This document shows, piece after piece, positions 14,816-50,789 of a stretch of DNA of 64,000 nucleotides. The stretch covers positions 1-64,000 of the forward strand of contig NZ_JAJSEC010000005.1 of assembly GCF_021272185.1 (NCBI RefSeq). The letters run 5' to 3'. A program made the position numbers and the translations under genes. Positions within the stretch are counted from its first letter, which is position 1, and every line of letters begins with the position of its first letter. Below the pieces are notes generated by a model, which saw only the letters and a list, made by a program, of their open reading frames with translations, was not told the origin of the DNA and searched no databases. The stretch is from Roseivivax sp. GX 12232 (GTDB taxonomy: Bacteria; Pseudomonadota; Alphaproteobacteria; Rhodobacterales; Rhodobacteraceae).

Positions 14816-14935
14816 GTGGTGCTGCGGACCTATGGGGTTTGGCGCTTCATCCCGGCCAGGTCAGGGCAAACCTTGAGCCCAACGCGCCACGCACAAGAGC
14901 GCTTGTCCAACGTGCCGGTCCGGGGTGCTTCATGG
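14816..14935 (-). repeat. degenerate copy (A') of the structured intergenic element
   Basis: It aligns with the middle and one side of copy A. It retains GGCGCTTCATCCCGGCCAGGTCAGG (14840-14864), CACAAGAGCGC and GTGCCGGTCCGG. The outer arm is lost on one side, so the 18-bp inverted repeat cannot form. It lies directly beside the intact copy at 14975, giving a head-to-tail pair of one decayed and one intact element. Orientation is assigned with the hairpin end as 5'. Confidence 0.65.
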
Positions 14936-14974
14936 CTATCCTGCGCCCTCCCCCTATCAACCCACACCACCAGA

Positions 14975-15140
14975 GGGCGCGCGCCGGACCGGGGGCCGGC
15001 GCCGCCAACCTCGGAGCTAAGCGCTTTATCCCGGCCAGGTCAGGACTAGAGACGAACTAGGCACACCGCCCACAAGAGCGCCGGCCCAAGGGGCCGGTCC
15101 GGCGCGCGCCCGGCATCTTCGATGCTGTTCGGGCGCAAGG
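14975..15140 (-). repeat. structured intergenic element, copy A
   Basis: Outer arms GGGCGCGCGCCGGACCGG (14975-14992) and CCGGTCCGGCGCGCGCCC (15094-15111) are a perfect 18-bp inverted repeat. Nested arms at 14994-15002 and 15078-15086 add 9 bp. A hairpin GCATC-TTC-GATGC lies at 15113-15125, and the conserved core GCGCTTTATCC...AGGTCAGGA at 15021-15044. The rest of 14777-15363 shows no gene. Transcribed from either strand it could fold into a long stem with an internal loop. Confidence 0.88.
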
Positions 15141-15363
15141 GGCGCGGGGATTTTACGGTGTGCGTAAAATATCCGGTGTCGCGGCTGGGCCGGGTGATCG
15201 GGCGATTGTGCGCGGTGCGATTGGGGGCGATTAGTTGATGCGCCCCTTGAGCGACGGCACAAGCTGCGAAACCCTCCCCAGCCCCCCCAAAACCCAAAAA
15301 ATCTCCCCCCAATCCCCCCGCACCGCTTTCCCTCACCGACCTCCCGGCCCAGATATCTCTCCC

Positions 15364-17808
15364 ATGACCGACCTCCCCGCCCCGCTCCAAACCTGGTTCG
15401 ACGCCCAGGGCTGGCAGATGCACCCGCACCAGCGCGCCATGCTCGACCGGGCCAGCGCGCCCGCGCTCCTGCTCATCGCGCCGACCGGCGGGGGCAAGAC
15501 GCTGGCGGGTTTCCTGCCGAGCCTCGCCGAGCTCGGAGAAACACCCGGCCCGGGGCTGCACACGCTCTACGTCAGCCCGCTCAAGGCCCTGGCCTCGGAC
15601 ATCAAGCGCAACCTGCGCCGCCCGGTCGAGGAGGCCGGCCTCGAGATCCGCATCGAGGACCGCACCGGCGACACCTCGTCCCACGCCAAGAAGCGCCAGC
15701 GCGCCGACCCGCCGCATATCCTGCTGACCACGCCCGAGAGCCTCGCCCTCCTGACCTCCTACGAGGACGCCGCGCGCACCTTCGCGGGGCTCCAGCGGGT
15801 GGTCATCGACGAGGTCCATGCCCTGGCGGAATCGAAACGCGGCGACCAGCTCATGCTGGCGCTGGCGCGGCTGCAGCGGCTGGCGCCGGGGCTCCGGCGC
15901 GTCGGGCTCTCGGCCACGGTGGACGACCCCGAGGCCATCGCGAAACTGGTCGCGCGCCACCCCGACCCCTGCGAGATCCTCGAGGCCGACCCGGGCCCCG
16001 AGCCCGACATCTCCATGCTGCGCACCGAGGAGGCCCCGCCCTGGTCCGGCGGCGGCGCGAAATACGCCATCCCCGCGGTCCTCGAGGCGGTGCGGCAGCA
16101 CCGCACCACGCTGATCTTCCACAACACCCGCGCGCAGGCCGAGATCTTCTTCCACCACCTGTGGCTCGCCAACGAGGACAGCCTGCCGATCGGCATCCAC
16201 CACGGCAGCCTCGACCGCGCCCAGCGCGAAAGGGTGGAGGCCGCCATGGTCGCGGGCCAGCTGCGCGCCATCGTCTGCACCGGCAGCCTCGATCTCGGCA
16301 TCGACTGGGGCGATGTGGACCTGGTGATCCAGGTCGGTGCGCCGAAGAACGTCAAGCGGCTGGTGCAGCGAATCGGCCGGGCGAACCACCGCTACAACGC
16401 GCCCTCGAAGGCGCTCTTGGTGCCCGCCAACCGCTTCGAGGTGGTGGAATGCCTGGCCGCGCTCGAGGCGGTGCGGGCCCGCGACCTCGACGGCGAGCCG
16501 CGCGGGCCGGGGCCGCGCGATGTCCTCTGCCAGCACATCCTGATCGCCGCCGCCGCGGGGCCCTTCGACGCCGACATGCTCTTTGCCGAGATGTCGGCGG
16601 CCGGGCCCTACGCGGGGCTGACCCGGGCCGAATTCGACGCCTGCCTCGATTTCTGCGCCACCGGCGGCTACGCGCTCCGGGCCTACGACCAGTGGCGGCG
16701 CATCCGGCAGCGCGACGACGGCCTCTGGGAGCTGCGCGACCCGCGCTCAGCGGCGCGGATCCGGCAGAACATCGGCACCATCCAGGACACCGACACGCTG
16801 AAGGTGCGGATGCGCGGGCGCGGCGGCAAGCCGCTCGGCGAGATCGAGGAAGGCTTCGCCGCCTCGCTCACGCCCGGCGACACCTTCCTGATCGGCGGGC
16901 AGATCGTGCGCTACGAGGGCCTGCGCGAGATGGTCGTAGAGGTCAGCCGCGACGCCGCGCGCAAGCCCAAGATCGCCACCTTCATGGGCACCAAGTTCGC
17001 CACCTCGACGCAGCTCTCCGAGCGCATCCTGCGGATGTTCCGCGAGAAGGACTGGGCCGCCCTGCCCGATCACACCGCCGACTGGCTGCGCCTGCAGTCC
17101 GAGGTCTCGCGGCTGCCGGAACCCGGGCGGCTCCTGATCGAGAGTTTCCCGCACGACGGGCGCGAGCAGCTGGTGGTCTACGGCTTCGCCGGGCGCAACG
17201 CCATGCAGACGCTGGGGCTTCTGCTGACCAAGCGCATGGAGGAAGAGGGCCTCGCGCCCATGGGCTTCGTCGCCACCGATTACGCCACGCTGATCTGGGG
17301 GCTCGACGCGGTGACCGACCCGCGGCCGCTGTTTGACATCGCGCGGCTGGAGGCGGGGCTCGAGACCTGGCTGACCGGTAACGCGGTGATGAAGCGCACC
17401 TTCCGCGCCTCGGCCAATATCGCGGGGCTGATCGAGCGGCAGGTCGGCGGGCAGCGCAAGTCCGGGCGGCAGGCGACCATGTCCTCGGACATCCTCTACG
17501 ACACGCTGGTGAAATACGACCCCGGCCACCTGATGCTGCAGATCACCCGCGAAGAGGCCATGCGCGGGCTCGTCGATTTCGCCCGCATCCGCGAGATGTG
17601 TCACCGGGTCGGCGACCGGATCGACCTGCACCGGCTGAGCCGGGTGACGCCGCTGGCGGCGCCGCTCTTCCTCGAGCCCGGGCGGGTGCCGATCCGGGGC
17701 AGCGCCGACGACCGGCTGATCGAGGAGGAGGTGACGCGGCTTCTCGACCAGTCGGGCCTGGCCGAGGTCGACGCCTCGGCCAAGCCGGCCTGGCGGGTGC
17801 CCTGGTAG
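15364..17808 (+). CDS. lhr: ligase-associated DEXH-box DNA repair helicase (Lhr-like)
   Basis: Superfamily 2 DNA helicase, 814 aa, of the short Lhr-like group often annotated as the ligase-associated DNA damage response helicase. RecA domain 1 has Walker A PTGGGKTLAGF (about residue 42) and DEVHALAESKRGDQL (about 148). Domain 2 has FHNTRAQAE, CTGSLDLGIDWGDVD and QRIGRANHRYN. A winged-helix region and the Lhr core domain follow. The ATG at 15364 was chosen; upstream in-frame residues are Pro/Ser-rich intergenic translation. pdeM follows on the same strand after about 270 bases, the usual repair partnership. No DNA ligase of that system is in the window. Confidence 0.92.
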   Translation: MTDLPAPLQTWFDAQGWQMHPHQRAMLDRASAPALLLIAPTGGGKTLAGFLPSLAELGETPGPGLHTLYVSPLKALASDIKRNLRRPVEEAGLEIRIEDRTGDTSSHAKKRQRADPPHILLTTPESLALLTSYEDAARTFAGLQRVVIDEVHALAESKRGDQLMLALARLQRLAPGLRRVGLSATVDDPEAIAKLVARHPDPCEILEADPGPEPDISMLRTEEAPPWSGGGAKYAIPAVLEAVRQHRTTLIFHNTRAQAEIFFHHLWLANEDSLPIGIHHGSLDRAQRERVEAAMVAGQLRAIVCTGSLDLGIDWGDVDLVIQVGAPKNVKRLVQRIGRANHRYNAPSKALLVPANRFEVVECLAALEAVRARDLDGEPRGPGPRDVLCQHILIAAAAGPFDADMLFAEMSAAGPYAGLTRAEFDACLDFCATGGYALRAYDQWRRIRQRDDGLWELRDPRSAARIRQNIGTIQDTDTLKVRMRGRGGKPLGEIEEGFAASLTPGDTFLIGGQIVRYEGLREMVVEVSRDAARKPKIATFMGTKFATSTQLSERILRMFREKDWAALPDHTADWLRLQSEVSRLPEPGRLLIESFPHDGREQLVVYGFAGRNAMQTLGLLLTKRMEEEGLAPMGFVATDYATLIWGLDAVTDPRPLFDIARLEAGLETWLTGNAVMKRTFRASANIAGLIERQVGGQRKSGRQATMSSDILYDTLVKYDPGHLMLQITREEAMRGLVDFARIREMCHRVGDRIDLHRLSRVTPLAAPLFLEPGRVPIRGSADDRLIEEEVTRLLDQSGLAEVDASAKPAWRVPW

Positions 17809-18079
17809 CCTGGGGCGGGAGGGCGCTGATGAGGCAAGGCGTGTCGAAGTGCCCGGCGCGGGATCGTCCAGCGCAGCCGTTGCACCGCACCGGCAGGGGT
17901 GAAGCACTGCCCCACCGCCGCGCCGCGCCGCGCGTCGCAGCCCCGTCGCGCCGTGCATCGCAGCCCCTCTGCACCCATCGCCGCCCCGCCGCGCCACCCG
18001 GCGCCTGCGCCCGACCGGTCCCACAGTGACGCCGCGCGCGGGGTTGCGCCTGCCGGCATCGCGGGCCTAAGAACAGGCC

Positions 18080-18742
18080 ATGAACACCCATGGTTTCACC
18101 TTCCGCGGCGCGCGGCTCGCGGCTCTACCCTCCGGGGCGCTCTACTGGGCCGATGAGGACCTGCTGGTCGTCTCCGACCTGCATCTCGGCAAATGCGCGC
18201 GGCTGGTGTCACAGGGCGGGGCCATGCTGCCGCCCTACGACGGGCTCGAGACGCTGGGCCGGCTCGACGCCGACCTCGCCGCGACCGGCGCGCGCGAGGT
18301 GATCTGCCTTGGCGACAGTTTCGACGACGCGGGCGCCAGCGCCGCCCTGCCCGAGGACCAGCAGCTCTGGATCGCGCGGCTGCAGGCCGGGCGGCGCTGG
18401 CTCTGGATCGAGGGCAACCACGACCCGGGCCCCGTCGCGGTGGGCGGCACCCATGCCGCCGAGGCCCGGCGCGGCCCGCTCACCTTCCGCCATATCGCCA
18501 CGCCCGAGGGCGCGGGCGAGGTCTCGGGCCACTACCACCCCAAGGCGCGCATGGCGCTGCGCGGGCGGTCGATCACGCGGGCCTGTTTCCTGGTCGATGC
18601 GGCGCGTCTGATCCTGCCGGCCTACGGCGCCTATACCGGGGGGCTCTGGTCCTCGCATGCCGCGCTCACCGGGCTTATGGCGCGGGATGCCCAGGCGATC
18701 CTGACCGGGCCGCGCCCGCTGGCGATCCCGATGCCGCGCTAG
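18080..18742 (+). CDS. pdeM: ligase-associated DNA damage response endonuclease PdeM
   Basis: Calcineurin-like metallophosphoesterase, 220 aa. The metal-ligand motifs are in the normal order: VVSDLHLGKCARL (about residue 30), LGDSFDD (about 76), EGNHDPG (about 112) and SGHYHPKARM (about 150). The family is found with an Lhr-like helicase and an ATP-dependent ligase in bacterial repair clusters. The gene lies downstream of that helicase on the same strand. The intervening 17809-18079 is GC-rich without a visible gene. The call combines motif order with context; nuclease activity is known for the family, not shown here. Confidence 0.9.
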   Translation: MNTHGFTFRGARLAALPSGALYWADEDLLVVSDLHLGKCARLVSQGGAMLPPYDGLETLGRLDADLAATGAREVICLGDSFDDAGASAALPEDQQLWIARLQAGRRWLWIEGNHDPGPVAVGGTHAAEARRGPLTFRHIATPEGAGEVSGHYHPKARMALRGRSITRACFLVDAARLILPAYGAYTGGLWSSHAALTGLMARDAQAILTGPRPLAIPMPR

Positions 18743-18782
18743 GGGCTTGCGGGCGCGCGCGCCCCATGCCTTGATGCGCGCC

Positions 18783-19196
18783 ATGCAGGACCGCATCCAA
18801 TCCTCCTTCGACCGGCAAAGCCTGATGGCGACGCTCGGCGCGCGGCTCGCGCGGGTCGCTCCGGGCGCGGTGGAGATCACCGTGCCGCTCGCGCCGCATG
18901 TGCTGCAGCAGCAGGGGCTGGCGCACGGCGGGCTGACCTTCTCGATCGGCGACAGCGCGGCGGGTTATTCGGCGCTGACCACGCTGTCCGAGGAGATGGA
19001 GGTGGTGACCTCGGAGATGAAGATCCACTACCTCGCCGCGCCGAAGGGCGTGACGCTGATCGCTCGCGGGCGGGTGGTGAAACCCGGGCGGCGGCTGATC
19101 GTGGTGGCAGCCGATGTGCACGCGGTCGACGCCGAGGGCGCGGAGCGGCATGTGGCGCTTCTGACCGGGACGATGATCCCGGTGCCAACGGGCTGA
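18783..19196 (+). CDS. PaaI-type hotdog thioesterase
   Basis: A 137-aa single-hotdog-fold protein. The core motif GLAHGGLTFSIGDSAAGYSA (from about residue 41) matches PaaI-type acyl-CoA thioesterases, where the GG and the Asp of the helix position and activate the thioester; VTSEMKIHYLAAPKG forms the following strand. It starts 41 bases after pdeM on the same strand; an ATG at 18774 is an equally possible start three residues earlier. Substrate is unknown. It converges on the acyltransferase gene on the other strand. Confidence 0.82.
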   Translation: MQDRIQSSFDRQSLMATLGARLARVAPGAVEITVPLAPHVLQQQGLAHGGLTFSIGDSAAGYSALTTLSEEMEVVTSEMKIHYLAAPKGVTLIARGRVVKPGRRLIVVAADVHAVDAEGAERHVALLTGTMIPVPTG

Positions 19197-19303
19197 GGCG
19201 CGGGCCGGCCCCGAGGCGAGATTTCCATTTTCTGAGAATGGCGCTGCAAGCTGGACCGCGCGCGCGGCCCGAGGCCCTGCCCTGCACCGCGCGCCGCCGC
19301 CCC

Positions 19304-20200: not shown

Positions 20201-20201
20201 G

Positions 20202-20480: not shown

Positions 20481-20502
20481 CGGCCCTGCCCTGGCTTTTG
20501 TC

Positions 20503-29990: not shown

Positions 29991-30238
29991 GGGGTTGGGG
30001 CGCGTTTGGGGGTGGTCGGTGCGCTCAGCTGGGGGCATCAGCTGGCGCATCGGCTGAGGTTCGCAGCGGACATCGGCTGAGTTTTGCTGCGGGCATCGGC
30101 TGAGGTTCGACTTCCTAGCTCAGGTCTCCTGGTTCCTGAACGAGCCACCCGCTGGCGCGCCGCAACTGGCCCGGTGTCGGTGCTTCCGAGATCGCGGACC
30201 CCTGCCGCTGTGCCGCCCTCTCACCCCTCCCGAACCCA
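29991..30238. repeat. short tandem repeats in the mcd-tamA gap
   Basis: From 30035 to about 30113 a motif near GCATCGGCTGAGGTTCG recurs. Units begin at 30047, 30070 and 30093 (23-base period), with a diverged GCATCAGCTG at 30035. The remainder up to copy B of the structured element shows no gene. Confidence 0.6.
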
Positions 30239-30403
30239 GGGCGCGCGCCGGACCGGGGGCCGGCGCTGCCGACCTCAGAGCTGCGCGCTTTATCCACGCA
30301 AAGTCAGGACGAGAGGATAGCTGAGCACGCCGTCCCAAGGAGCGCCGGCCCATCGGGCCGGTCCGGCGCGCGCCCGGCACCTTCGGTGCTATTCGGGCGC
30401 AAG
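30239..30403 (-). repeat. structured intergenic element, copy B
   Basis: Perfect 18-bp arms GGGCGCGCGCCGGACCGG (30239-30256) and CCGGTCCGGCGCGCGCCC (30358-30375). The core GCGCTTTATCCACGCAAAGTC lies between. Hairpin GCACC-TTC-GGTGC is at 30377-30389, then TATTCGGGCGCAAG. It lies between mcd and tamA, both on the + strand, with the hairpin end nearer tamA. The following 30404-30863 shows no convincing gene; an open frame at 30445 is Ser/Pro-rich without recognisable features. Confidence 0.9.
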
Positions 30404-32681: not shown

Positions 32682-35600
32682 GACATCTGACCGCCCTCAC
32701 CCTTGCCACAGCGACGGGCTTCGGCCTGGCCGCCCCTGCCCCGCTCATGGCCCAGGGCTCCGACGACCGCGGACGCCTCGAGGCGCTGATCGAGGACAAC
32801 CTCTCGGGCGAAGGCTTCAACGTCGACATCGTGGGCTTCGAGGGGGCGCTCTCCTCGGTGGCCTCGCTGGAAGAGCTGATCATCTCGGACGCCCAGGGCC
32901 CCTGGCTGACCCTGCGCGGGGTCGAGCTGGACTGGAACCGCGCGGCACTTCTGCGCGGGCGGGTCTCGGTCGAGGAGCTGGTGGCCGAGGAAATCCTCAT
33001 GCCGCGCCTGCCCCAGGGCGGCGAGGCGGCCGAAGAGCTGCCCGAGGCCGAGGCCAAGCCCTTTTCCCTGCCCGAGCTGCCCGTCTCGGTCGAGATCGGA
33101 CGGATCGCCGCCGAGCGGGTCGAACTCGGCGCGGAGGTCATGGGCACCGCGGCGGTCATCGCGCTCGAGGGCTCGGCAAGCCTCGCGGGCGGCGAAGGCG
33201 AGGTGGCGCTCTCGGTCGATAGGCTCGACCGCGGGGGCGAGATCTCCCTCGAGGGCTCCTACGCCAACGAGAGCAACACCCTCTCGGTCGACCTCGCGCT
33301 GGACGAGCCCGAAGGCGGCATCGTCGCCGGGCTGATCGGCTTGCCGGGCGAGCCCGCGCTGGCGCTTTCGGTCGAGGGCGAAGGCCCGCTGTCGGATTTC
33401 GCCGCCGACCTGCAGCTTGCCACCGAAGGCCAGGACCGGCTCTCGGGTCGGGTCGCGGTGCGCGCGCTCGAGGGCGAGGCCCCGGGCACCGGCTTCACCG
33501 TCGATCTGGCCGGCGACATCCGCCCGCTCCTGACGCCCGAGAACCGCGCCTTCTTCGGCGCCGACCTCAGCCTCGCGGTGGCGGGCGAGAGCTTGGAAAG
33601 CGGCGCGCTCAACATCGACACGCTGTCGCTGGCCTCCGAGGCGATCAACATCGACGGGCAGATCGCGCTGGGTCCCGACAAATGGCCCCGCCTGATCGAC
33701 CTGACCGGCGACATCGCCGGGCGCGACGGCCAGCCGATCCAGCTGCCGATCCCCGGCGAGGTCACCCGCGTCGACCGCGCCGAGCTGAACGTGCAATACG
33801 ACGCCGAGGCGGGCGAAAGCTGGCGCGCCGACATCCAGGTCGCGGGACTCGACCGCCCGACGCTGGCCGCGGAGGCCCTGCGCCTTGACGGCGACGGCAC
33901 GCTGGCGCGCGGCGACGGCAGCGCCATCGGCCGGGTCGAGGGGCGCTTCGACCTGGGCGCCGAGGCGCTGGCCTTCGCCGATCCCTCGCTGGCCGAGGCC
34001 GTGGGCAGTACGCTCTCGGGGCTGGTGCGCTTCTCCTACCAGGAGAACGAGCCCCTGCGGCTGACCGAGATCGACCTCGACGGCGCCGGGCTGGCGCTGG
34101 CGGGCGCGCTCGACATCTCGGGGCTGACCGACGATCTGAACATCGCCATCGAAGGCGCGCTCGACGTCGAGACCGACGATATCGCGCGCTTCTCCGCGCT
34201 GGCCGGGCGCGAGCTGTCGGGCGGCGCGCGGGCCAGCGTCGAAGGCCGGGTCGAGCCGATCTCGGGCGCTTTCGACGCCGATCTCGACGCCCGGGTCACC
34301 GACCTCGTGACCGGCATCCCCGAGGCCGACCGGCTGCTTGACGGGGAGACCGCGCTCAGCCTCAGCGCCCGGCGCGACGAGGCGGGCATCCTGATCCGCG
34401 CGCTGGACCTTTCGGCGCCCGAGGCCAGCCTCGAGGCCAACGGGCGGCTCGGCGGCGCGACCGGCAACGCCGAGCTGGCGCTGCGCATCGCCGAGATTTC
34501 CGAGATCCTGCCCGAGCTGAGCGGTCCGCTGGAATTCGACGGCACCGCGCGCAACGCCGGCGAGGACTGGCAGATCAGCGGCGACCTCGCGGGGCCCGGC
34601 GGCGCCGAGGCGGTCGTCGACGCGGCGCTGAAGCTGGTCGAGGGGCAGCTCACCACGCTGGGCGGCAGCCTGACCGCCGATGTGGACGACCTTTCGGCCT
34701 ATTCCCGGATCGCCGGGCGCGAGCTGGGCGGCGCCGCGGAGCTGACCGCCGAGGGCAGCGCCGATCTGACCGAGACGGTCTTCAGCCTCAACGCCTCGGG
34801 CGCGGTGACCGACCCGCTGACCGGCGTGGCCGAGGCCGACCGGCTGCTCGAAGGGCGCACGCGCTTCAGCGTCGACGGCACCTATTCCGAGGCGGCGATC
34901 CTTCTGCGGGAGCTGCGCATCGCGGGCGAGCGCATCACCGCCAGCGCCGAGGGCGCCTACCGCGAGAGCGACAGTGCCTTCGACCTCGACCTGCGGCTGA
35001 GCGAGCTGGGCGACGTGCTGCCCGCCATGTCCGGCGCCGCGACCCTGCGCGGCAGCGCGCGGCAGCGGGGCGAGGACTGGGACCTCACGCTCGACGCCGA
35101 CGGGCCGGGCGGGCTTGTGGCCGATCTCGACGGCACCGCGCGGGTCGAGGACCTGGTGCCGCAGTCGGTCATGGGCGAGCTGGCGCTGCGGGTGAACACG
35201 CTGCGCCCCTATGCGGGGCTGACCGGGCAGGCACTGTCCGGCGCGATCGAGGCGCAGGCCTCGGGGAGTTACGACCTCACGACCGGGGCCGCCGATCTGA
35301 CGCTCGACGCCGATGCGACGAGCCTCGCCACCGGCATCGCGCCGGTCGACCAGCTCCTGCGCGGCGGGGTGACGGATCTGTCCTTCACCGGCGGGCGCAC
35401 CGCCGAGGGCAACTTCCGCATCGAGCGGCTGGATCTCGACACGCCGCAGCTCGAGGCCAATGCCAGCGGCACCTATGGCGCCGATGGCGGGCGCATCGAC
35501 TACGACCTGGCGCTGGCGAACCTCGGCCTCTTCGTGCCCGATTTCACCGGCCCGGCCACCGCGCGCGGCAGCGCCGAGACCTCGGGCGGCGACTGGCGCG

Positions 35601-36964
35601 TGGACGCGGCGCTGACCGCGCCGGGCGACACGCGGGCCAATGTCTCGGGCAGCCTGGCGCCCGATGCCTCGCGGGTCGACCTGGACGTGACCGGGGCCGC
35701 GCCGCTGGGGCTGGCCAATCCCTTCCTCGCGCCGAACCTCGTGGGCGGCACCGCCAATTTCGACCTCAGCGTGAACGGCGCACCGGGGCTCGAGGCCGTC
35801 TCGGGCCTTGTCAGCACCCGCGGCGCGCAGTTCACCGTGCCCGCGCAGAACCTCGCGCTCGAGGACATCAACGCCGACATCCGCCTGGGCGGCGGCCGGG
35901 CCGAGATTGACCTTCGGAGCGATGTTTCCTCGGGTGGCGATATCCGGGTGACCGGCCCGGTGACGCTCTCGGCGCCCTTCAACGGCGATCTGAGCGTCAT
36001 CCTCGACGACGTGGTGGCCGCCGATCCGGGCCTCTACCAGACCGACCTCGACGGCAGGCTGCGCCTGAGCGGTCCGCTGGCCTCGACCGCGACGCTCTCG
36101 GGCCGGGTGGAGCTGGACCAGACCGAGGTGCGCATCCCCTCGGGCGGCGGCATCCAGACGCTCGACTTCCCGATCGAGCACCGCAACGCCAACCCCGAGG
36201 TGCGCCGCACGCTGGAACGCGCGGGCCTCGTGGAACGCCCCGAGGAACAGACCCAGAGCGGCGGCGGGCTGAACTACGGGCTCGACCTGGTGATCTCGGC
36301 CCCGAGCCGGATCTTCATCCGTGGCCGCGGGCTCGACGCCGAGGTCGGCGGCGAGCTGCGCGTCGGCGGCACCACGCAAAACGTCGTGCCGCAGGGCCGC
36401 TTCGAGCTGATCCGCGGGCGGCTCGACATCCTGGGCCAGCGCATCGAGCTGGACGAGGCGACGGTCTCGCTCGAGGGCGACTTCAATCCCTTCGTGCGGG
36501 TTGTGGCGCTGACCCAGAGCGGCGACACCCAGATCAGCGTGACGATCGAGGGCGCGGCCTCGGACCCCGAAGTCAGCTTCGCCTCGACGCCCGACCGCCC
36601 GCAGGAAGAGGTGCTGGCGCTGCTGCTCTTCGGCCGCGACCTGTCCGAGATTTCGGCCTTCCAGGCCCTGCGCATCGCCGCGGCGATCAACACGCTTTCG
36701 GGCGGGGGCCCCGGCATCACCGAGACGCTGCGGGCCAATACCGGGCTCGACAACCTCGACCTGCAGACCTCCGAGGACGGCTCCACCGCGGTCAGCGTCG
36801 GGAAATACATTGGCGAGAACGCCTATACCGACGTGACGGTGAACAGCACCGGGGAGACCGAGGTGAACCTGAACCTCGAGATCACCGACTCGGTGACCGC
36901 GCGGGGGACGGTGTCCTCGACCGGGAACACCGGCGTGGGGCTGTATTACGAGCGGGATTATTGA
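32678..36964 (+). CDS. tamB: translocation and assembly module protein TamB
   Basis: Very large envelope protein, 1428 aa. It is anchored at the inner membrane and spans the periplasm as a repetitive beta-taco that supports outer-membrane protein or lipid transfer with TamA. The likely start is a TTG overlapping the tamA TGA (TTGA), giving RHLTALTLATATGFGLAAP as the N-terminal hydrophobic signal. The middle carries many degenerate repeats of the type LxxxxSGxxxxxxR, e.g. AGRELSGGARASVEG. The C-terminal DUF490 region includes GTTQNVVPQGRFELIRGRLD and ends SSTGNTGVGLYYERDY. No frameshift seen. Confidence 0.93.
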   Translation: MRHLTALTLATATGFGLAAPAPLMAQGSDDRGRLEALIEDNLSGEGFNVDIVGFEGALSSVASLEELIISDAQGPWLTLRGVELDWNRAALLRGRVSVEELVAEEILMPRLPQGGEAAEELPEAEAKPFSLPELPVSVEIGRIAAERVELGAEVMGTAAVIALEGSASLAGGEGEVALSVDRLDRGGEISLEGSYANESNTLSVDLALDEPEGGIVAGLIGLPGEPALALSVEGEGPLSDFAADLQLATEGQDRLSGRVAVRALEGEAPGTGFTVDLAGDIRPLLTPENRAFFGADLSLAVAGESLESGALNIDTLSLASEAINIDGQIALGPDKWPRLIDLTGDIAGRDGQPIQLPIPGEVTRVDRAELNVQYDAEAGESWRADIQVAGLDRPTLAAEALRLDGDGTLARGDGSAIGRVEGRFDLGAEALAFADPSLAEAVGSTLSGLVRFSYQENEPLRLTEIDLDGAGLALAGALDISGLTDDLNIAIEGALDVETDDIARFSALAGRELSGGARASVEGRVEPISGAFDADLDARVTDLVTGIPEADRLLDGETALSLSARRDEAGILIRALDLSAPEASLEANGRLGGATGNAELALRIAEISEILPELSGPLEFDGTARNAGEDWQISGDLAGPGGAEAVVDAALKLVEGQLTTLGGSLTADVDDLSAYSRIAGRELGGAAELTAEGSADLTETVFSLNASGAVTDPLTGVAEADRLLEGRTRFSVDGTYSEAAILLRELRIAGERITASAEGAYRESDSAFDLDLRLSELGDVLPAMSGAATLRGSARQRGEDWDLTLDADGPGGLVADLDGTARVEDLVPQSVMGELALRVNTLRPYAGLTGQALSGAIEAQASGSYDLTTGAADLTLDADATSLATGIAPVDQLLRGGVTDLSFTGGRTAEGNFRIERLDLDTPQLEANASGTYGADGGRIDYDLALANLGLFVPDFTGPATARGSAETSGGDWRVDAALTAPGDTRANVSGSLAPDASRVDLDVTGAAPLGLANPFLAPNLVGGTANFDLSVNGAPGLEAVSGLVSTRGAQFTVPAQNLALEDINADIRLGGGRAEIDLRSDVSSGGDIRVTGPVTLSAPFNGDLSVILDDVVAADPGLYQTDLDGRLRLSGPLASTATLSGRVELDQTEVRIPSGGGIQTLDFPIEHRNANPEVRRTLERAGLVERPEEQTQSGGGLNYGLDLVISAPSRIFIRGRGLDAEVGGELRVGGTTQNVVPQGRFELIRGRLDILGQRIELDEATVSLEGDFNPFVRVVALTQSGDTQISVTIEGAASDPEVSFASTPDRPQEEVLALLLFGRDLSEISAFQALRIAAAINTLSGGGPGITETLRANTGLDNLDLQTSEDGSTAVSVGKYIGENAYTDVTVNSTGETEVNLNLEITDSVTARGTVSSTGNTGVGLYYERDY

Positions 36965-37228
36965 GGGGGCTGGGGTTGGTTTGGACTGGTCGGGGTGAGG
37001 GCCGGAAGCAGACTGAATAGCGGGAGCGATAGGCCGGACTTGCACGGCCCGCCGCCTACCCGATCTGCCAGACCTGCGCGGCCTGCTCCCTCCCCCCTGC
37101 CCGTCCCGGGAAGACCCTAACCCTGCGCCCGAAGGCCGTCACCTTGCGCCCAAAGGAGCGGAAACGACCCGCGGCAGACAGCACCACCCGCTCGGCCCTT
37201 CTTAAATCCAGCAACCACCCACGCCACT
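36965..37228. other. tamB-ectR gap, left part: no gene seen
   Basis: GC-rich sequence between convergent tamB and ectR. It holds CTGCGCCCGAAGG and CTTGCGCCCAAAGG, two fragments resembling the start of the structured element's copy C that follows. No gene or clear terminator is seen. Confidence 0.5.
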
Positions 37229-37393
37229 CTTGCGCCCGAATAGCATCGCAGATGCCGGGCGCGCGCCGGACCGGCACCTTGGGCCGGCGCTCCTGGGGAT
37301 GGCGCGCATAGCGGTTCTCTAGCCCTGATCTTGCGTGGATAAAGCGCATAGCTCGGAGGTCGGCAGCGCCGGCCCCCGGTCCGGCGCGCGCCC
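37229..37393 (+). repeat. structured intergenic element, copy C
   Basis: It begins CTTGCGCCCGAATA with hairpin GCATC-GCA-GATGC at 37243-37255. Perfect 18-bp arms are at 37257-37274 and 37376-37393. The core TGATCTTGCGTGGATAAAGCGC is at 37326-37347. It lies between convergent tamB and ectR. To its right, 37394-37653 holds a short tandem repeat (GGGTGGTCGCGCA twice, 37424-37455) but no gene. Confidence 0.9.
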
Positions 37394-37653
37394 TCCGCGC
37401 TTGGGTGGTTGCCGTTGTTCGATGGGGTGGTCGCGCACAAGGGGGGTGGTCGCGCAAAAGGAGCTCGAAGCCTCGCGGTGCTCGCATGATGCGGCGGGCA
37501 TTCTCGGCGCGCATCCTCTGCGCTCAGCTATCAGAGATTGGTTTGATGTTCGGCTGTGTGGCTTGCGGCGTCAGCGCGCAGCGATACGCGGCCTGTCAGC
37601 GGCAAAGCTCCCCCTGCCCGCTCAGCGCCCCGCAGCGGCCCACCGCAAACCCC

Positions 37654-38163
37654 TCAGCTATTCGCGATCTTCCGCCGCGCCGGCGCGGTGTCGTGCCGGG
37701 CGATCTCGCCCATGGCCAGCACCGGCGAGGCGTCGTATTCGCCGTCGTCCAGCATGTTCGCCACGCGCTCCAGCACCGAGACGATCATCGACTGCTCCCA
37801 GTCGGGCATCGCCTCGAACTTCTGCACGTAGCGCTGCTGCAGCGCGTCCGGCGCGGAGGTCAGCCGCTCGGCGCCCTCGGGCGTCACCGTCAGGTCGATC
37901 TGGCGGCGGTCGCCGACCGACTGGTGCCGGGCCAGGACGCCCAGCGCCTCGAGCTTCTTGATGATGACCGAGATCGTCGCCTGGCTGACGCCCATGCGCG
38001 TGGCGATCTCGGAGGGATGGCAATTGCCCTTCTCGGCGACAATCTGCAGGACCCTGAGCTGCACCGCGGTCAGCCCCACGTCGCGCGCGAGGTCGCGACC
38101 GTAAAGCTCGGTCGCACGCAGAATGCGCCTGAGAGCAACGAGACTCGTGTCGGTGCGGTCCAT
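37654..38163 (-). CDS. ectR: MarR-family repressor of ectoine genes (EctR)
   Basis: A winged-helix MarR-type regulator, 169 aa from the ATG at 38163 (MDRTDTSLVALRR). Residues about 25-110 hold the DNA-binding fold: LTAVQLRVLQIVAE, HPSEIATRMGVSQATISVIIKKLEALG (recognition helix) and RRQIDLTVTPEG (wing). It is divergent from ectABC-ask, the standard location of EctR, which represses ectoine synthesis at low salinity in methylotrophs. In-frame ATG codons at 38232 and 38256 would lengthen the N-terminus; the choice is uncertain as no start has a strong ribosome site. Confidence 0.88.
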   Translation of the reverse strand: MDRTDTSLVALRRILRATELYGRDLARDVGLTAVQLRVLQIVAEKGNCHPSEIATRMGVSQATISVIIKKLEALGVLARHQSVGDRRQIDLTVTPEGAERLTSAPDALQQRYVQKFEAMPDWEQSMIVSVLERVANMLDDGEYDASPVLAMGEIARHDTAPARRKIANS

Positions 38164-42426: not shown

Positions 42427-42590
42427 CTTGGCCCGAATAGCACCGAAGGTGCCGGGCCCGCGCCGGTCCGGCCCGCCCGGACTGGCGCTCTTTCAACGCT
42501 GGAGCGAGGGGGCGAGGTCTTCCCGACCTTGCAAGATAAACCGCAGACCCCAAACCGAGCAGCGCCAGCCCGCCGGACCGGCGCGGGCCC
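42427..42590 (+). repeat. structured intergenic element, copy F (variant subfamily)
   Basis: It begins CTTGGCCCGAATA with hairpin GCACC-GAA-GGTGC at 42440-42452. The arms are GGGCCCGCGCCGGTCCGG (42454-42471) and CCGGACCGGCGCGGGCCC (42573-42590), again a perfect 18-bp inverted repeat but with two pairs swapped relative to copies A-D. The nested pair is CTGGCGCT (42482-42489) and AGCGCCAG (42561-42568). The core is GACCTTGCAAGATAAACCGC. It lies just after the ect terminator. Confidence 0.9.
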
Positions 42591-42762
42591 TCGGTTGGCT
42601 TTTCGTGGAATCGAAGGGCAAGGCAGCCCGACGGATGCTCAAAGCCCTCAAGTCACCCTGACATATCAGTCCCTGGAACAGTTCGGGTGACACTCCAAGA
42701 GCACCCCGCCCAGTCAGCCCACAGACCGCCCCGCGCCCGCCATCACAGCCCAACGCCCCCTT

Positions 42763-42926
42763 CTTGGCCCGAACAGCACCGAAGGTGCCGGGCCCGCGCC
42801 GGTCCGGCCCCGTCGGACTGGCGCTCTTTCAACGCTGGAGCGAGGGGTCGAACTCGTCCTGACCTTGCAAGATAAACCGCGGACCTCAGACCGAGCAGCG
42901 CCAGCCCGCCGGACCGGCGCGGGCCC
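42763..42926 (+). repeat. structured intergenic element, copy G (variant subfamily)
   Basis: Sister of copy F, in the same orientation 336 bases on. It begins CTTGGCCCGAACA. The 18-bp arms at 42790-42807 and 42909-42926 are identical to those of F. The core is TGACCTTGCAAGATAAACCGC. The 170 bases between F and G and the flank up to 42963 hold no gene. The pair lies between convergent ask and the EamA gene. Confidence 0.9.
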
Positions 42927-42963
42927 TCTGTGGCGCTTCCTGAGGCAGAAGCCCTAGCGTCCC

Positions 42964-44002: not shown

Positions 44003-44110
44003 CAGTGGCCCGCCGCGCCAGGCACGACGGGCAGGCGGTAAGCCATTCGGTGAACCGGTGCGGCGGGCATCGGCGGCCTCGACCGCCGGTTAGCCGCCCG
44101 CCGAGGGGCC

Positions 44111-45313
<1,203 letters not shown>

Positions 45314-45317
<4 letters not shown>

Positions 45318-46460: not shown

Positions 46461-46718
46461 CGGAGGGGCGTGGGGGCTGGGTCTGGGCGGTGTGTTTTGC
46501 CGTTGGGCTTGGCTTGTGCCTCGCCGGGGGCCCCGCGTTCGGGCGCTAGGACGTGCCCAAGCGCGCGGAAGGCCCCAAAAGCAAACCGCCCGCGCGAAGG
46601 ACCGCCCCCGGACAAAACGCCCGCCCACGCAGTCCCCCTCCTCCCCCCAAGCGACCCCACGCCGCACCCCGCCTTCGCCCCTCTCGCCCACCCTGCCTTG
46701 CGCCCTACCTCCCGCGCC

Positions 46719-48068
46719 ATGAGCGAGCGTGATCCCCGCGCGGTCCCGGTGCCCTCGGGCCGCCTGGCCCGGATGGGCCGCATGGGCCGGCTGGCGACGG
46801 GGGTCCTCTCCCGCGCGGCCGCCGATGGCGCGCGGGCCTATGCCAGCGGGCAGCGGCCGGGCCTTTCGGACCTCGTGCTCAGCCCCGCCAATGCGACGCG
46901 GCTGGCCGAGGAGCTCTCCAAGATGCGCGGCGCGGCGATGAAGCTGGGCCAGCTCCTCTCCATGGAGGCGGGCGAAGTGCTCCCGCCCGAGCTTGCCGAG
47001 ATCCTCGCCCGGCTCCGGGCCGAGGCGCATTACATGCCGCCCGCCCAGCTCAAGCAGGTCCTGACCGAGAACTGGGGCGCCGACTTCCAGCGCCGCTTCC
47101 GGCGCTTCGACGTGCGCCCGATCGCCGCCGCCTCGATCGGCCAGGTGCACCGCGCCGAGACCCGCGCGGGCCGCCGGTTGGCGATCAAGGTGCAATACCC
47201 CGGCATCCGCGCCTCGATCGACAGCGACATCCGCAACCTCGGCAGCCTCTTGCGCTGGTCGGGGCTGCTGCCGCGCGGCCTCGACCTGTCGCCGCTTCTC
47301 GAAGAGGCGCGCCAGCAGCTGCACGAGGAGGCCGATTACACCCGCGAGGCCCGGGCGCTCGCCCGCTTCGGTGATTGGCTCGCGGAGGAACCGGGGCTGC
47401 GGGTCCCGGGGCTCGAGGAGGCCTTCTGCACCACGGACATCCTCGCCATGGACGACGTCGGCGGCTGGCCGATAGAGAGCGCCTTCGAGGCCGACCAGGC
47501 GACCCGCGACGGGCTCGCCGCGCGGCTCCTGACCCTGGCGCTGCGCGAGCTCTTCGAGCTGGGCGCCATGCAGACCGACCCGAACTTCGGCAACTACCGC
47601 TACGACCCGGAAACGGGCGAGATCCTGCTTCTGGACTTCGGCGCGGTGCGGGATTTCGCGCCCGAGCGCATCGCGGATTTCCGCGCGCTTCTGACCGCGG
47701 TGCTTTCGGGCGGGCGCGCGGAGATGCGGCAGGCGGCGGTGCGGGTGGGCTACCTCAGCGCCGACACCGAAGAGACGCAGACCGCGCAGGTGCTCGACCT
47801 CATGGAGATCGCCGCCGCGCCGCTGCGCGCGCCTGGACCCTTCGACTTCCGCTCCGAACGGCTGGCGGCGCGGCTCGCCGAGGCGGGCGAGGCGCTGGCC
47901 CGCGACCGCGATTTCGCGGTGATCCCGCCGGTCGACGCGCTGTTTCTCCAGCGCAAGGCCATGGGGCTCTACCTCCTGTCAGCGCGGCTCGGCGCGCGGC
48001 TCGACCTCGTGGCGCTCCTGGCGCCCTTCGCGGAAGCCTTGGCAAATTCGCACAAATCCTCTGCCTGA
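46719..48068 (+). CDS. ABC1/UbiB-family atypical protein kinase-like ATPase
   Basis: A 449-aa member of the AarF/ABC1/UbiB family. The KxGQ helix is MRGAAMKLGQLLSME near residue 70. The Ala-rich nucleotide loop is IAAASIGQVHRAE near 140, followed by RLAIKVQYPGI with the catalytic Lys. QTDPNFGNYRY and LLLDFGAVRDF (DFG-like) lie near 290-310. Unlike UbiB of E. coli it has no C-terminal membrane helices, fitting the soluble type. The ATG at 46719 was chosen; the upstream frame is intergenic. The family supports ubiquinone or lipid metabolism; the target here is unknown. Confidence 0.9.
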   Translation: MSERDPRAVPVPSGRLARMGRMGRLATGVLSRAAADGARAYASGQRPGLSDLVLSPANATRLAEELSKMRGAAMKLGQLLSMEAGEVLPPELAEILARLRAEAHYMPPAQLKQVLTENWGADFQRRFRRFDVRPIAAASIGQVHRAETRAGRRLAIKVQYPGIRASIDSDIRNLGSLLRWSGLLPRGLDLSPLLEEARQQLHEEADYTREARALARFGDWLAEEPGLRVPGLEEAFCTTDILAMDDVGGWPIESAFEADQATRDGLAARLLTLALRELFELGAMQTDPNFGNYRYDPETGEILLLDFGAVRDFAPERIADFRALLTAVLSGGRAEMRQAAVRVGYLSADTEETQTAQVLDLMEIAAAPLRAPGPFDFRSERLAARLAEAGEALARDRDFAVIPPVDALFLQRKAMGLYLLSARLGARLDLVALLAPFAEALANSHKSSA

Positions 48069-48135
48069 AACGGCCTGTTCGGCGTGGGCGCCCGAGGCTT
48101 AGCTTGGAAGGGCAAGCCCGCGAAGGAGAGCCCCA

Positions 48136-48618
48136 ATGTCCAGCGCCCCGCCCGACACCCGCATCGGCCATGTCCACCTGAAGGTCTCGGACCTGGCACG
48201 GTCCGTCGCCTTCTACCGGGCGGTGATCGGGCTCGAGGTCACGCAGTATTTCGGCGATGAGGCGGCCTTTCTCTCGGCCGGGGGCTATCACCACCACCTC
48301 GGGCTCAACACCTGGATGAGCCGCGGCACCACGCCGGGGCCGAAGCGCCAGCCGGGGCTGTTCCACACCGCCTTCCTCTTTCCCGACCGCGCGAGCCTGG
48401 GCGCGGCGCTGAAGCGCGCCCACGCGTATGGCGTCGAGATCGAAGGGGCCGCCGATCACGGGGTCTCCGAGGCGGTCTATTTCTCCGATCCCGACGGCAA
48501 CGGCATCGAGATCTACCGCGACCGCGCGCCCGAGGACTGGCCGCGCGACGGCGACGGGGGGCTGGCCATGGTGAACGCGCCGCTCGACCTCGAGGCGCTC
48601 CTGGCCGAGGCGGGCTGA
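48136..48618 (+). CDS. VOC (glyoxalase-fold) family protein
   Basis: A 160-aa two-module glyoxalase-fold protein. RIGHVHLKVSDLARSVAFYR carries the first metal His near residue 14. FLSAGGYHHHLGLNTW and LFHTAFLFPDRAS follow, and FSDPDGNGIEIYRDRAPE has the C-terminal Glu. It resembles CatE/ring-cleavage-like VOC proteins. CGAAGGAGAG 8 bases upstream of the ATG supports the start. It lies 67 bases after the ABC1 gene and may share its transcript. Substrate unknown. Confidence 0.86.
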   Translation: MSSAPPDTRIGHVHLKVSDLARSVAFYRAVIGLEVTQYFGDEAAFLSAGGYHHHLGLNTWMSRGTTPGPKRQPGLFHTAFLFPDRASLGAALKRAHAYGVEIEGAADHGVSEAVYFSDPDGNGIEIYRDRAPEDWPRDGDGGLAMVNAPLDLEALLAEAG

Positions 48619-48755
48619 GCGGCTCGGCGGAACGGGCGGTCTTGGTGGGTGCGATATGAGGCCCGCAACCGGGCCCGCCCCGACCGTCTGGCCTTTCCCC
48701 CGCCCCGGCGTTATCGACGGGACCAGCCGACCGAGACGCGACGAAGGAGACCGCC

Positions 48756-49628
48756 ATGGCGACGGGCCGCAACATCCGCACCTATTTCAACGGCACTTGG
48801 CAGCAGGGCGATGTCGCGGTGATGCGCGCCGCCGACCACGGCGCCTGGCTGGGCTCCACCGTCTTCGACGGGGCGCGCTTCGTCGACGGCATGGCGCCGG
48901 ACCTCGACAAGCACTGCGCGCGGATCAACCATTCCGCCCGGGCGCTGATGATCGAGCCGACCCACAGCGACGCCGAGATCCTCGAGATCGCCCGCGAGGG
49001 GCTGAAGGCCTTCCCGCGCGAGGCGCAGGTCTACATCCGCCCGATGTACTGGTCGCTGAACTCCGAGCCCTCGGCGATCATGCCGAAGATCGGCAAGGCC
49101 GAGACCGGCTTCGCGCTCTGCCTCGAGGAGTTCCCGATGCTCGGCCGCGACGAGACGGTGACGCTCGGGCGCACCCGCTTCCGCCGCCCGGTGCTCGAGG
49201 ACAACGTGGTCAACGCCAAGGCGGGCTGCCTTTACCCCAACAACTCGCGGATGCTGGCCGAGGTCAACGCGCGCGGCTTCACCAATGCGCTGGTGGGCGA
49301 CGCCATGGGCAATGTCGCCGAGACCGCGACCTCCAATGTCTTCATGGTCAAGGACGGGGTGGTCTTCACGCCGATCCCGAACGGCACCTTCCTGTCGGGC
49401 ATCACTCGCGCGCGCCACATCGAGAACCTGCGCGCCGATGGCGTCGAGGTCGTAGAGACGGTGCTGAGCTTCGCCGATTTCGAGGCCGCCGACGAGGTCT
49501 TCCTGACCGGCAACCTCAACAAGGTGACCCCGGTCTCGGCCTTCGAGGACGTGCAATACGAGTTCGGCCCGGTGACCCGGCGCGCGCGCGACATCTACTG
49601 GGACTGGGCGGCCTCGGCTGGGGTGTGA
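48756..49628 (+). CDS. ilvE: class IV aminotransferase, branched-chain type
   Basis: PLP-dependent fold-type IV aminotransferase, 290 aa. The Schiff-base Lys is in NVVNAKAGCLYPNNSRM near residue 155. The phosphate-binding Glu region GNVAETATSNVFMVKDG is near 188, and FLSGITRARHI near 212 is the usual IlvE block. The N-terminal YFNGTWQQGDVAVMRAADHG is typical of IlvE-like proteins. Transamination of Leu, Ile and Val is the likely role, though D-amino-acid or related transaminases share this fold. GAAGGAGA precedes the ATG. It has no operon partner. Confidence 0.82.
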   Translation: MATGRNIRTYFNGTWQQGDVAVMRAADHGAWLGSTVFDGARFVDGMAPDLDKHCARINHSARALMIEPTHSDAEILEIAREGLKAFPREAQVYIRPMYWSLNSEPSAIMPKIGKAETGFALCLEEFPMLGRDETVTLGRTRFRRPVLEDNVVNAKAGCLYPNNSRMLAEVNARGFTNALVGDAMGNVAETATSNVFMVKDGVVFTPIPNGTFLSGITRARHIENLRADGVEVVETVLSFADFEAADEVFLTGNLNKVTPVSAFEDVQYEFGPVTRRARDIYWDWAASAGV

Positions 49629-49873
49629 GGCTGGGTCTTCGTGAGGGGCTGAGGGGCCTTTGAGGCCGCGGCCTTTCTGAGGAGAGGCGCGGCGGCTTTC
49701 GGGCAGGATCGGCGGCAGGCTTTGCCGCCGTCTCGACTAAAGGCACGCGCCCCCAGCGCCCTGCCCAGACACCCGCCCGCCTGCCCTGCCACAACCCTGA
49801 GGGCATCCTTTCCGCCCGCGCTTGCCCCGCCTGCGCCCCCCTGCCATGATCCCGGCGAAGGGGGGAGATCGCG

Positions 49874-50329
49874 ATGCGCAAGTTCCTGGTCGTGCTCGAC
49901 GACAGCCGCGAATGCCTCAACGCCATGCGCTTCGCCGCCATGCGCGCCGCGCACACCGGCGGCGGGGTGACGATCCTCTCGGTGATCACGCCCGAGGACT
50001 TCTCGCATTGGGTCGGCGTCGGCGACATCATGCGCGAGGAGGCCCGCGAGCGCATCGAGGCGCATTTCGAGGTCTTCGCCAAGTGGATGCGCGACCGCCA
50101 GGGCATCGAGCCCGAACTGGTGATCCGCGAGGGCGAGCCGGTGCCGCAGATCATCGCCCAGGTGCAGGACGACCCGCAGATCGGCGTGCTGGTGCTGGGG
50201 GCGGGCTCCGGCAAGGGCGGGCCCGGGCCGCTGGTGACCCAGCTCACCCGCAACTCCGGCAGCCTGCCGGTGCCGATCACCATCGTGCCGGGGGACCTCT
50301 CGAAGGAGGAGCTGGAGGGGATTACTTGA
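49874..50329 (+). CDS. universal stress protein family (UspA) protein
   Basis: A 151-aa single Usp domain. MRKFLVVLDDSRECLNAMRFA has the N-terminal strand and Asp of the nucleotide pocket. The C-terminal LVLGAGSGKGGPGPLV, then LPVPITIVPG, matches the GxxGxG-x9-G(S/T) ATP-binding form. GGGGGAGATCGCG precedes the ATG. Neighbours do not suggest a specific pathway. The preceding 49629-49873 has no gene. Confidence 0.87.
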   Translation: MRKFLVVLDDSRECLNAMRFAAMRAAHTGGGVTILSVITPEDFSHWVGVGDIMREEARERIEAHFEVFAKWMRDRQGIEPELVIREGEPVPQIIAQVQDDPQIGVLVLGAGSGKGGPGPLVTQLTRNSGSLPVPITIVPGDLSKEELEGIT

Positions 50330-50602
50330 GGGGCGGCGCGGGCCGGGCTTGGGCGGTTTGTGGGGTATTGGCCGCGGAGGCCGCGCGGGTGGTGGGCCTA
50401 TGGGCTCAGAGCCTGCGCGAGCGGGACCTTAAAACCTGCGCAAGCCGGATCATAGAAAACGCGCCGCGCAATCAACCGGGCACCTTCCACTCATTCTATT
50501 CCAATCCACCGTTCTTAATCCAATTCACCCGAAGACCACATCCTGCGCCGCAAAAGGCCCGGACCTGAGACCCGCCGCACCCCGGCCCCGACAAGCGCCC
50601 TC
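50330..50602. other. uspA-nfuA gap, left part: no gene seen
   Basis: A less GC-rich patch at 50420-50560 with CCAATCCACC and CCAATTCACC. No gene, terminator or RNA could be recognised before copy E. Confidence 0.45.
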
Positions 50603-50789
50603 CTGCGCCCGAATAGCACCGAAGGTGCCGGGCGCGCGCCGGACCGGCCCCTTGGGCCGGCGCTCCTACGAGTGGCGCGCATAGATCGCCCCTAGTCCTG
50701 ACCTTGCATGGATAAAGCGCCTCGCTCGAAGGGCAGCAGCGCCGGCCCCCGGTCCGGTGCGCGCCCTCTGGTGCGAGGGGTGAGAGGGG
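50603..50789 (+). repeat. structured intergenic element, copy E
   Basis: It begins CTGCGCCCGAATA with hairpin GCACC-GAA-GGTGC. Arms are at 50630-50647 and 50749-50766; one base differs (CCGGTGCG) but still pairs as G-T. The core is TGACCTTGCATGGATAAAGCGC. The tail TCTGGTGCGAGGGGTGAGAG after the arm is shared with copy D. It lies between uspA and nfuA, both on +. The following 50790-51026 holds no gene. Confidence 0.9.

Follow-up and report, generated by a model that had tools for sequence, protein, structure and literature searches.

Small mobile sequences of the ERIC/RU and Correia types are 100-200 bp long and intergenic, with inverted arms and a foldable transcript. The element family described here, compared with them by description only, has different hosts and a different sequence. 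REPINs, in the portions of Bertels and Rainey 2011 (PMC3116915) consulted here, are hairpin-forming REP doublets with an inter-REP spacing of 71 or 110 bp that are mobilized by RAYT; dependence on RAYT transposases is described in the portions used of both PMC3116915 and PMC8049555. The foot of the REP palindrome carries a GTAG or CGTC tag, according to part of PMC3733652, and BIMEs are introduced in part of PMC2817692 as mosaics of REPs. Insertion sequences of the IS200/IS605 group insert into, and exit from, the lagging-strand template (PMC6006769, in part).

The window analyzed is a stretch of 64,000 nucleotides from Roseivivax sp. GX 12232 (contig NZ_JAJSEC010000005.1, positions 1 to 64,000). 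A first-pass annotation, made from its letters, had proposed seven copies of a structured element and a decayed eighth near 14816. Sequence, alignment, and covariance model R1, which was used to place the 163-nt cores, bear out all seven at their sites, and the eighth is recovered as a partial R1 match. The features are as follows, in window coordinates:

14804-14923, + strand: decayed copy immediately before copy 1; partial R1 match limited to model positions 11-129, at 47.7 bits
14974-15136, + strand: copy 1, 163-nt core; R1 179.0 bits, own-genome relatives 82-90% identical
14975-14992, + strand: copy 1, outer arm, 5' strand; its partner is 15094-15111
14993-15003, + strand: copy 1, inner arm, 5' strand; pairs with 15077-15087, the innermost pair being a C-A mismatch
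15025-15029, + strand: copy 1, TTTAT loop motif, family-wide; 1.67-2.0 bits per position
15077-15087, + strand: copy 1, inner arm, 3' strand
15094-15111, + strand: copy 1, outer arm, 3' strand; its end alternatively pairs with the distal strand of the 3' hairpin
15113-15125, + strand: copy 1, 3' hairpin; the bulge TGTT and CGGGC come next
30238-30400, + strand: copy 2, 163-nt core; R1 177.5 bits
37232-37394, - strand: copy 3, 163-nt core, between convergent genes; R1 179.1 bits, orthologous spacer lacks the element in eight congeners
42429-42591, - strand: copy 4, subfamily 2; R1 120.2 bits, orthologous spacer in G004 lacks the element
42765-42927, - strand: copy 5, subfamily 2; R1 132.4 bits
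46277-46439, - strand: copy 6, 163-nt core, between divergent genes; R1 183.3 bits
50605-50767, - strand: copy 7, 163-nt core; R1 181.0 bits, short orthologous spacers in G006 and G008 lack the element

Read in the sense orientation, the arms of each core are 18 bp (outer) and 11 bp (inner) long and enclose a loop of ~73 nt; a short asymmetric internal loop interrupts their 3' strands, and a 3' hairpin follows. The initially described layout (hairpin, 18-bp outer arm, unpaired core, and matching arms) is retained except for the inner arm, which had been given as 8-10 bp. Across 46 own-genome copies, conservation continues ~29 nt upstream and ~10 nt downstream of the core, for a total of ~200 nt, and nearly all of these copies have a bulge of four bases (T, A/G, T, T) on the distal side of the 3' hairpin. 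The lower stem of this hairpin would need the end of the outer arm's 3' strand. Because the distal hairpin strand can pair with that arm strand, the rod and the full hairpin are mutually exclusive. The sole nearly fixed part of the loop is the motif TTTAT, with 1.67-2.0 bits per position versus a mean of 0.54 for the loop outside positions 50-62 (weighted information content, 87 sequences). Copies 4 and 5, which lie in tandem on the same strand 336 bp apart, form a second subfamily with compensating arm changes. In the 46 own copies, no T-run of an intrinsic terminator follows the 3' hairpin, the consensus being AAG and then a purine-rich GGG; nor is a GTAG or CGTC foot tag, as described in the consulted part of PMC3733652, conserved at either end in column counts inspected by eye.

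The element shares several features with REPINs as they appear in the consulted portions of PMC3116915. Both are inverted pairs of palindromic units around a spacer, here the ~73-nt loop; both can form a hairpin in single-stranded DNA or mRNA and show compensatory changes; and both are extragenic, present in hundreds of copies, and also clustered. However, there are salient differences. The own genome and 34 of 39 multi-copy genomes have no Y1/RAYT gene, and 10 Y1 loci from relatives have no flanking element. The element additionally has a polar 3' hairpin, the near-invariant loop TTTAT, and a strand bias relative to GC skew. It measures ~163-200 nt and, within one bacterial family, occurs in at least half of the genera sampled. 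As two defining features of the REP-RAYT system, the RAYT gene and RAYT-flanking repeats, are lacking, the element works like a REPIN but is not filed as one. The best explanation, to which we assign a probability of roughly 50%, is a non-autonomous REPIN-like mobile DNA element, probably copied via single-stranded DNA at replication forks with the help of a non-Y1 enzyme.

The structure of the element is under constraint. In 44 own-genome copies (alignment A2, i.e., 44 of 47 extracted copies, three with misplaced starts having been dropped), 98.7% of the arm and hairpin cells are standard pairs and four pairs vary on both sides; hairpin pair 145-151, for example, is C-G in 25 of the 44 and U-A in 17. 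Arm sequences differ between genera while the pairing, which includes G-U, is kept. Alignment A4 holds 87 model-fitted sequences, weak and duplicate loci being omitted through the choice of sources and by a cut at E 2e-8. The proportion of paired cells in A4 is 94.6%, and both sides have changed in 31 of 34 pairs, compared with 16.2 after shuffling and at most 16 after sliding. Alignment A5, made with MAFFT alone and not fitted to structure, covers 56 of the about 87 sequences and gives 92.9% paired cells, with 22 of 29 pairs changed on both sides (12.6 shuffled, at most 11 slid).

Our covariation scan also ranks pairs inside each half of the element, such as 8-29 and 105-132. When the loop is instead flanked by two separate hairpins, 85.6% of cells pair (at most 43.8% slid), and the covariation of this fold is 0.170 (at most 0.055 slid). 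Support for both the rod and the two-hairpin fold means that the four arm segments change together, which is the expectation for an inverted doublet of palindromes.

The family, first described as dispersed and multi-copy, is larger than the window indicated. The organism's genome (G000; 4.12 Mb in 38 contigs) holds 237 matches to a 27-nt hairpin pattern, with up to 2 mismatches allowed, and 229 to a 27-nt pattern of the 5' arm, with up to 3 allowed; as a control, either pattern reversed gives 0. This corresponds to ~230 copies, or ~1 per 18 kb. The covariance search of the same genome yields at least 150 matches, and all 150 listed are full-model.

Gene context and skew were counted with our own simple codon-usage gene caller rather than a standard annotation, in the window and 20 sampled stretches. 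Of 109 R1 matches, the 76 with at least 98 bits were counted as elements; the other 33 are weaker and consist mostly of antisense readings of the same palindromes, together with the decayed window copy and a hairpin-only unit. None of the 76 overlaps a gene, in stretches that are 67-89% coding. With this caller, the window copies are intergenic, lie in both orientations, and have codirectional, convergent, and divergent neighbors, as the first-pass annotation had it. After collapsing tandems, 49 loci comprise 16 convergent, 7 divergent, and 26 tandem gaps (15 elements with the genes, 11 against), as compared with 37, 49, and 102, respectively, among all 188 gaps longer than 100 bp. Convergent gaps are thus somewhat over-represented (p 0.06) and divergent gaps under-represented (p 0.09), neither significantly. 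No constant position or orientation upstream of one gene class, as in a riboswitch, is seen among the 49 collapsed loci, and the flanking genes identified in the window and in relatives are diverse.

Close neighbors are arranged head to tail in 19 of 19 pairs in the own genome and 17 of 17 in G026, while G205 and G216 each have, among the matches listed, a single close pair, whose members lie on opposite strands. The folded single-strand attC sites of integrons, characterized by R boxes and an IntI integrase, likewise occur head to tail. Palindromic units in composite arrays, with spacers of recurrent sequence, are a feature shared with BIMEs, as far as the cited part of PMC2817692 describes them; the head-to-tail arrangement in the own genome and G026 differs from the alternating one of BIMEs.

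The ends of the element are fuzzy in 46 own copies. With such boundaries, and with congener spacers too diverged, no target-site duplication could be defined. An inverted repeat flanking copy 37232 (CAACCACCC / GGGTGGTTG) was considered and set aside, since flank complementarity over 75 copies is 5.85 as against 6.00 for shuffled partners.

Full-length copies in the own genome are 82-90% identical to the query copy, as opposed to at most 76% for the best full-length matches in other Roseivivax genomes, indicating that each species has amplified its own variant. Orthologous sites were compared at three places. Site A (window ~36966-37697) spans ~690-730 nt here, versus spacers of 0, 56, 75, 75, 95, 141, 283, and 297 nt in eight congeners. 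G004 has a 68-nt spacer at site B. At site C, the spacers of G008 and G006 measure 55 and 126 nt, respectively; the remaining congeners have 513 to about 2,600 nt of other DNA there. No element was detected in the 16 congener stretches of sites A-C (best E 0.75). Among the spacers of tandem pairs, 8 of 25 fall into three homologous clusters at unlinked loci, so that units of two elements with their spacer have been copied. Empty orthologous sites, copied two-element units, and species-specific variants together favor the mobile branch. The original argument, which preferred a mobile or repeatedly copied element, or a multi-copy RNA or binding site, to a riboswitch tied to one gene, is supported. 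Sequence comparison demonstrates that the element has been copied within genomes, that it has been gained at sites which are empty in congeners, that two-element units have been copied as well, and that genes are avoided.

Some sites recur. A comparison of flanking genes covered 98 element places, 97 of which had at least one flanking protein (167 proteins in 139 clusters); five places adjoin pheS and four adjoin pheT. Five element loci are associated with pheS-pheT, three codirectional and two opposite, and this difference in orientation suggests separate insertions rather than one inherited copy. By tblastn, at least four element places lie in the rplW-rplB spacer. The pheS-pheT and rplW-rplB spacers look like tolerant landing sites.

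The same features can be read in terms of RNA. A multi-copy structured RNA, such as an element that stabilizes or processes mRNA ends and is cleaved or bound at the unpaired UUUAU, could have spread because it is used. The conserved pairing including G-U, the triloop hairpin with its fixed bulge, the invariant loop motif, and the repeated occurrence inside operons such as pheS-pheT and rplW-rplB would all fit. However, orientation relative to tandem genes is mixed (15 with, 11 against), strand tracks GC skew rather than coding direction (p 0.27; 0.09 in the opposite sense when collapsed), the hairpin has no T-run, and no Rfam family matches; we regard this reading as unlikely, though of some weight.

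A covariance-model search of the own genome and its relatives, the check suggested with the original observation, returns many matches with conserved pairing. R1 matches occur in 18 of 61 genomes, all within Rhodobacteraceae. Model R2 draws on 87 sequences, taken from the window and its relatives. When it is applied to the best 9 candidates per genome, 152 of 295 Rhodobacteraceae genomes, one per genus, have matches at E <= 1e-4 (best E 1.2e-26 to 6.9e-5), and 143 of the 295 have none at this threshold. Copy number ranges from one to more than 150 per genome. A class-wide draw of 289 genomes produced matches only in the own genome and two of the same family. As four family genomes are among those listed in the draw, no match was found in the ~285 alphaproteobacteria tested outside Rhodobacteraceae.

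A degenerate core pattern retrieved 61 stretches in named genomes, all of which we take, from their names and taxonomy, to belong to Rhodobacteraceae in the broad sense; the genera include Thalassococcus, Sediminimonas, Roseivivax, Roseovarius, Leisingera, Thioclava, Tropicimonas, Marinovum, and others. An exact 28-mer of the own variant is absent from the named-genome contigs. Plasmid copies occur in Salipiger sp. CCB-MM3 and Pacificitalea manganoxidans, and the two plasmid copies that were checked against the annotation both lie in stretches with no listed gene. As a plasmid query, the own variant gives only two partial matches, both in one Paracoccus gene. A phage origin was discarded, with no match in phages (own variant as the only query) or in viral contigs (core pattern).

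The identity of the element with a named RNA family, which the first-pass annotation had raised as the counter-case, finds no support in Rfam. The window has 0 matches at gathering cut-offs, and a permissive search of 12 loci gives no match near cut-off over the elements. The nine weak matches that do appear (E 0.065 to 3.4) fail to cover the elements as a class, and we attribute them to chance. No description of the family was found among the openly licensed PubMed Central papers searched, and repeated intergenic elements go unmentioned in the consulted part of a Ruegeria pomeroyi small-RNA study (PMC4809877). In annotation terms, the element makes up a frequent and unnamed part of the intergenic DNA of roseobacters and related bacteria.

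The known driver of REPINs is a RAYT. Y1_Tnp (PF01797) has 0 matches in the own genome, with positive E. coli and Caulobacter controls. The domain was then sought in 39 multi-copy genomes (36 of the 43 with at least nine R2 matches, plus three Roseivivax) and in 15 genomes with no element match, three of which were judged by R1 only. It is absent from 34 of the 39, and its presence in 5 of 39 versus 1 of 15 shows no link to the element (p 1.0). Within 1.5 kb of 10 Y1 loci from relatives no element was found (best E 1.2). RAYT/Y1 as the present driver is rejected on these three counts, i.e., an own genome with no Y1, no tracking of the element, and no flanking elements.

A historical variant of this idea would make the elements relics of a RAYT system, in which a Y1 transposase amplified the REPINs before it disappeared from most genomes. 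The layout matches that of a REPIN, a Y1_Tnp match still persists in the five multi-copy genomes, and a within-genome identity of 82-90% is not fresh. Nevertheless, the presence of Y1 is unlinked to the element and none of the 10 Y1 loci has an element nearby. Furthermore, the species-specific variants imply that amplification outlasted the split of the genera, so that Y1 would have had to be lost afterwards each time. We consider such a relic origin rather improbable.

Genomes with few copies were inspected for other candidates. The Pfam scan of 20 element-adjacent proteins at 12 low-copy loci returned mostly housekeeping functions (PheS, PheT, L2, L23, PurA, LepA, UvrB, TrpA, SHMT, and ClpB), as well as one Mutator-family transposase (L377) and one ParB_N protein (L365), with no recurrent mobilizer candidate among them. 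The statement that no transposase lies near the window copies also holds, with none among the 18 of 51 called window genes that were scanned with Pfam, all flanking genes of the copies included.

A further rival is an ordinary MITE, in which a DDE transposase would move the double-stranded ends of its insertion sequence in trans. Such an origin would account for short, non-coding, intergenic, many-copy elements with inverted arms and empty congener sites, and a gene for a Mutator-family transposase is situated 90 bp from one of the elements in G267. It sits poorly with the polarity of the element (3' hairpin and loop motif), a loop length that is kept across genera, and a strand bias relative to GC skew. 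In addition, no target duplication was found, and no parent element is present in the flanks of the window and low-copy loci. A MITE of this kind is decidedly improbable.

The strand bias would link the preferred REPIN-like reading to replication. In the own genome, element strands occur in blocks, with 40 switches among 131 collapsed loci as compared with 58.5 when shuffled (p 0.0006), and the sense strand of the element is the C-rich strand. Strand balance falls as GC skew rises (rho -0.59, p 0.005, 21 stretches), and likewise with a third-codon skew that is free of gene direction (rho -0.68, p 0.0014, 19 stretches); it shows no correlation with coding direction (p 0.27). Once tandems are collapsed, 24 loci are on + and 9 on - where the skew is negative, compared with 2 on + and 16 on - where it is positive (p 2.8e-5).

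The same sense is found in four further genomes. In G017, which has a sharp skew switch, 16 of 18 elements agree (p 0.0025; 18 of 31 matches used). G026 gives a Fisher p of 0.05 and a rank test of 0.005 (109 of at least 150 matches), G081 a p of 0.07 and a rank test of 0.03, and G216 a p of 0.12; many elements in G081 and G216 run counter to the trend. Pooling G017, G026, G216, and G081 yields an odds ratio of 0.32 (p 1.4e-4). Thus, the bias has one sense in five genomes of five genera, being strong in two and weak in three, and the own genome and G017 are the only ones individually significant by Fisher's test. GC skew, interpolated here from 20-kb samples, serves as a proxy for replication direction. 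The leading strand is generally G-rich. With a C-rich sense strand, this would expose the antisense strand of the element on the lagging-strand template.

A bias of one sense in five genera, a density of ~1 copy per 18 kb, and persistence in 152 of 295 genera could also reflect a polar chromosome element that is useful to the host and preferred in one orientation per replichore, in the manner of short polar chromosome-processing motifs. However, copy number varies from one to more than 150, 143 of 295 genomes have no match, and the bias is incomplete, making a host function of this type very improbable.

IS200/IS605 elements, as described in part of PMC6006769, are among the closest known systems. 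They share with the element subterminal hairpins with bulges, and insertion into and excision from the lagging-strand template would yield a similar strand bias. In contrast to them, the element has no protein, Y1 transposase, or identified cleavage site.

It is hypothesized that the mobile unit is ~200 bp long and consists of two inverted palindromic units, each side comprising an outer and an inner arm, around the ~73-nt loop that bears TTTAT, with the polar 3' hairpin marking one end. At replication forks the element would become single-stranded, fold into the long rod or into two facing hairpins, and spread on one strand. Insertion into intergenic DNA would take place singly or as head-to-tail pairs with the intervening spacer, and mobilization would be provided in trans by an enzyme other than the Y1 (RAYT/IS200) transposase. 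We infer the single-stranded step, the coupling to replication, and the non-Y1 mobilizer. The near-invariance of the loop motif exceeds the needs of a bare REPIN, and the motif may have a role in RNA or as a binding site. More tentatively, Rhodobacteraceae may possess REPIN-like single-strand elements whose mobilizer is not Y1/RAYT and possibly belongs to host replication or repair, with the end hairpin and the loop motif setting the strand used at the fork.

The family-wide structured mobile repeat is real; it is REPIN-like, and its known driver is missing. If the more tentative reading is true, a second enzyme would have given rise to, or taken over, a REPIN-type architecture. The strand bias provides a direct, testable link from the spread of the element to replication. 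A REPIN-like family amplified separately in many genera, mostly with no RAYT gene, would point to a missing mobilizer, and the Rhodobacteraceae are a culturable group in which to seek it.

The element, a hairpin-forming intergenic repeat, recurs in the same intergenic positions in several genera. It is found repeatedly in the pheS–pheT spacer (loci L366, L374, L191, L213, and L227), where it occurs in both orientations, differing among loci, and in the rplW–rplB spacer (L369, L237, L210, and L373). In a single case, in the sampled genome G267, a Mutator-family transposase gene (L377, 805–2019) lies 90 bp away from one element.

The window also harbors repeats of other kinds. An intergenic repeat distinct from the element spans 13723–14098 and consists of two units in tandem, approximately 200 bp apart, that share 97% identity across 176 bp and contain the palindrome GGAAATACTCCGGGGGTCCGGGGGCAGAGCCCCCG; shorter related matches occur in L300, L313, L296, and L309. 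Within genes, a paralogous pair encoding ABC transporter ATPases (8759–10282 and 53955–55553) shares 71–73% DNA identity over its repeats, and a gene for a PnrA-like binding protein (12408–13484) is located nearby. The TamB-like gene (32747–36964), immediately downstream of an Omp85-family gene, harbors three repeats with a spacing of 510 bp (34294–35365).

Partial and composite arrays of the element are observed as well. In L031 (2150–2405; approximately 90650–90905 of contig C1 in the window's own genome, G000), the polar 3′ hairpin of the element is present three times without the rest of the element, with a period of approximately 73 bp, downstream of one full copy. In L300, L302, L303, and L309, elements form tandem pairs separated by spacers of approximately 150 nt. 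Because these spacers are homologous in sequence between unlinked arrays, they may constitute a second repeat unit in their own right.
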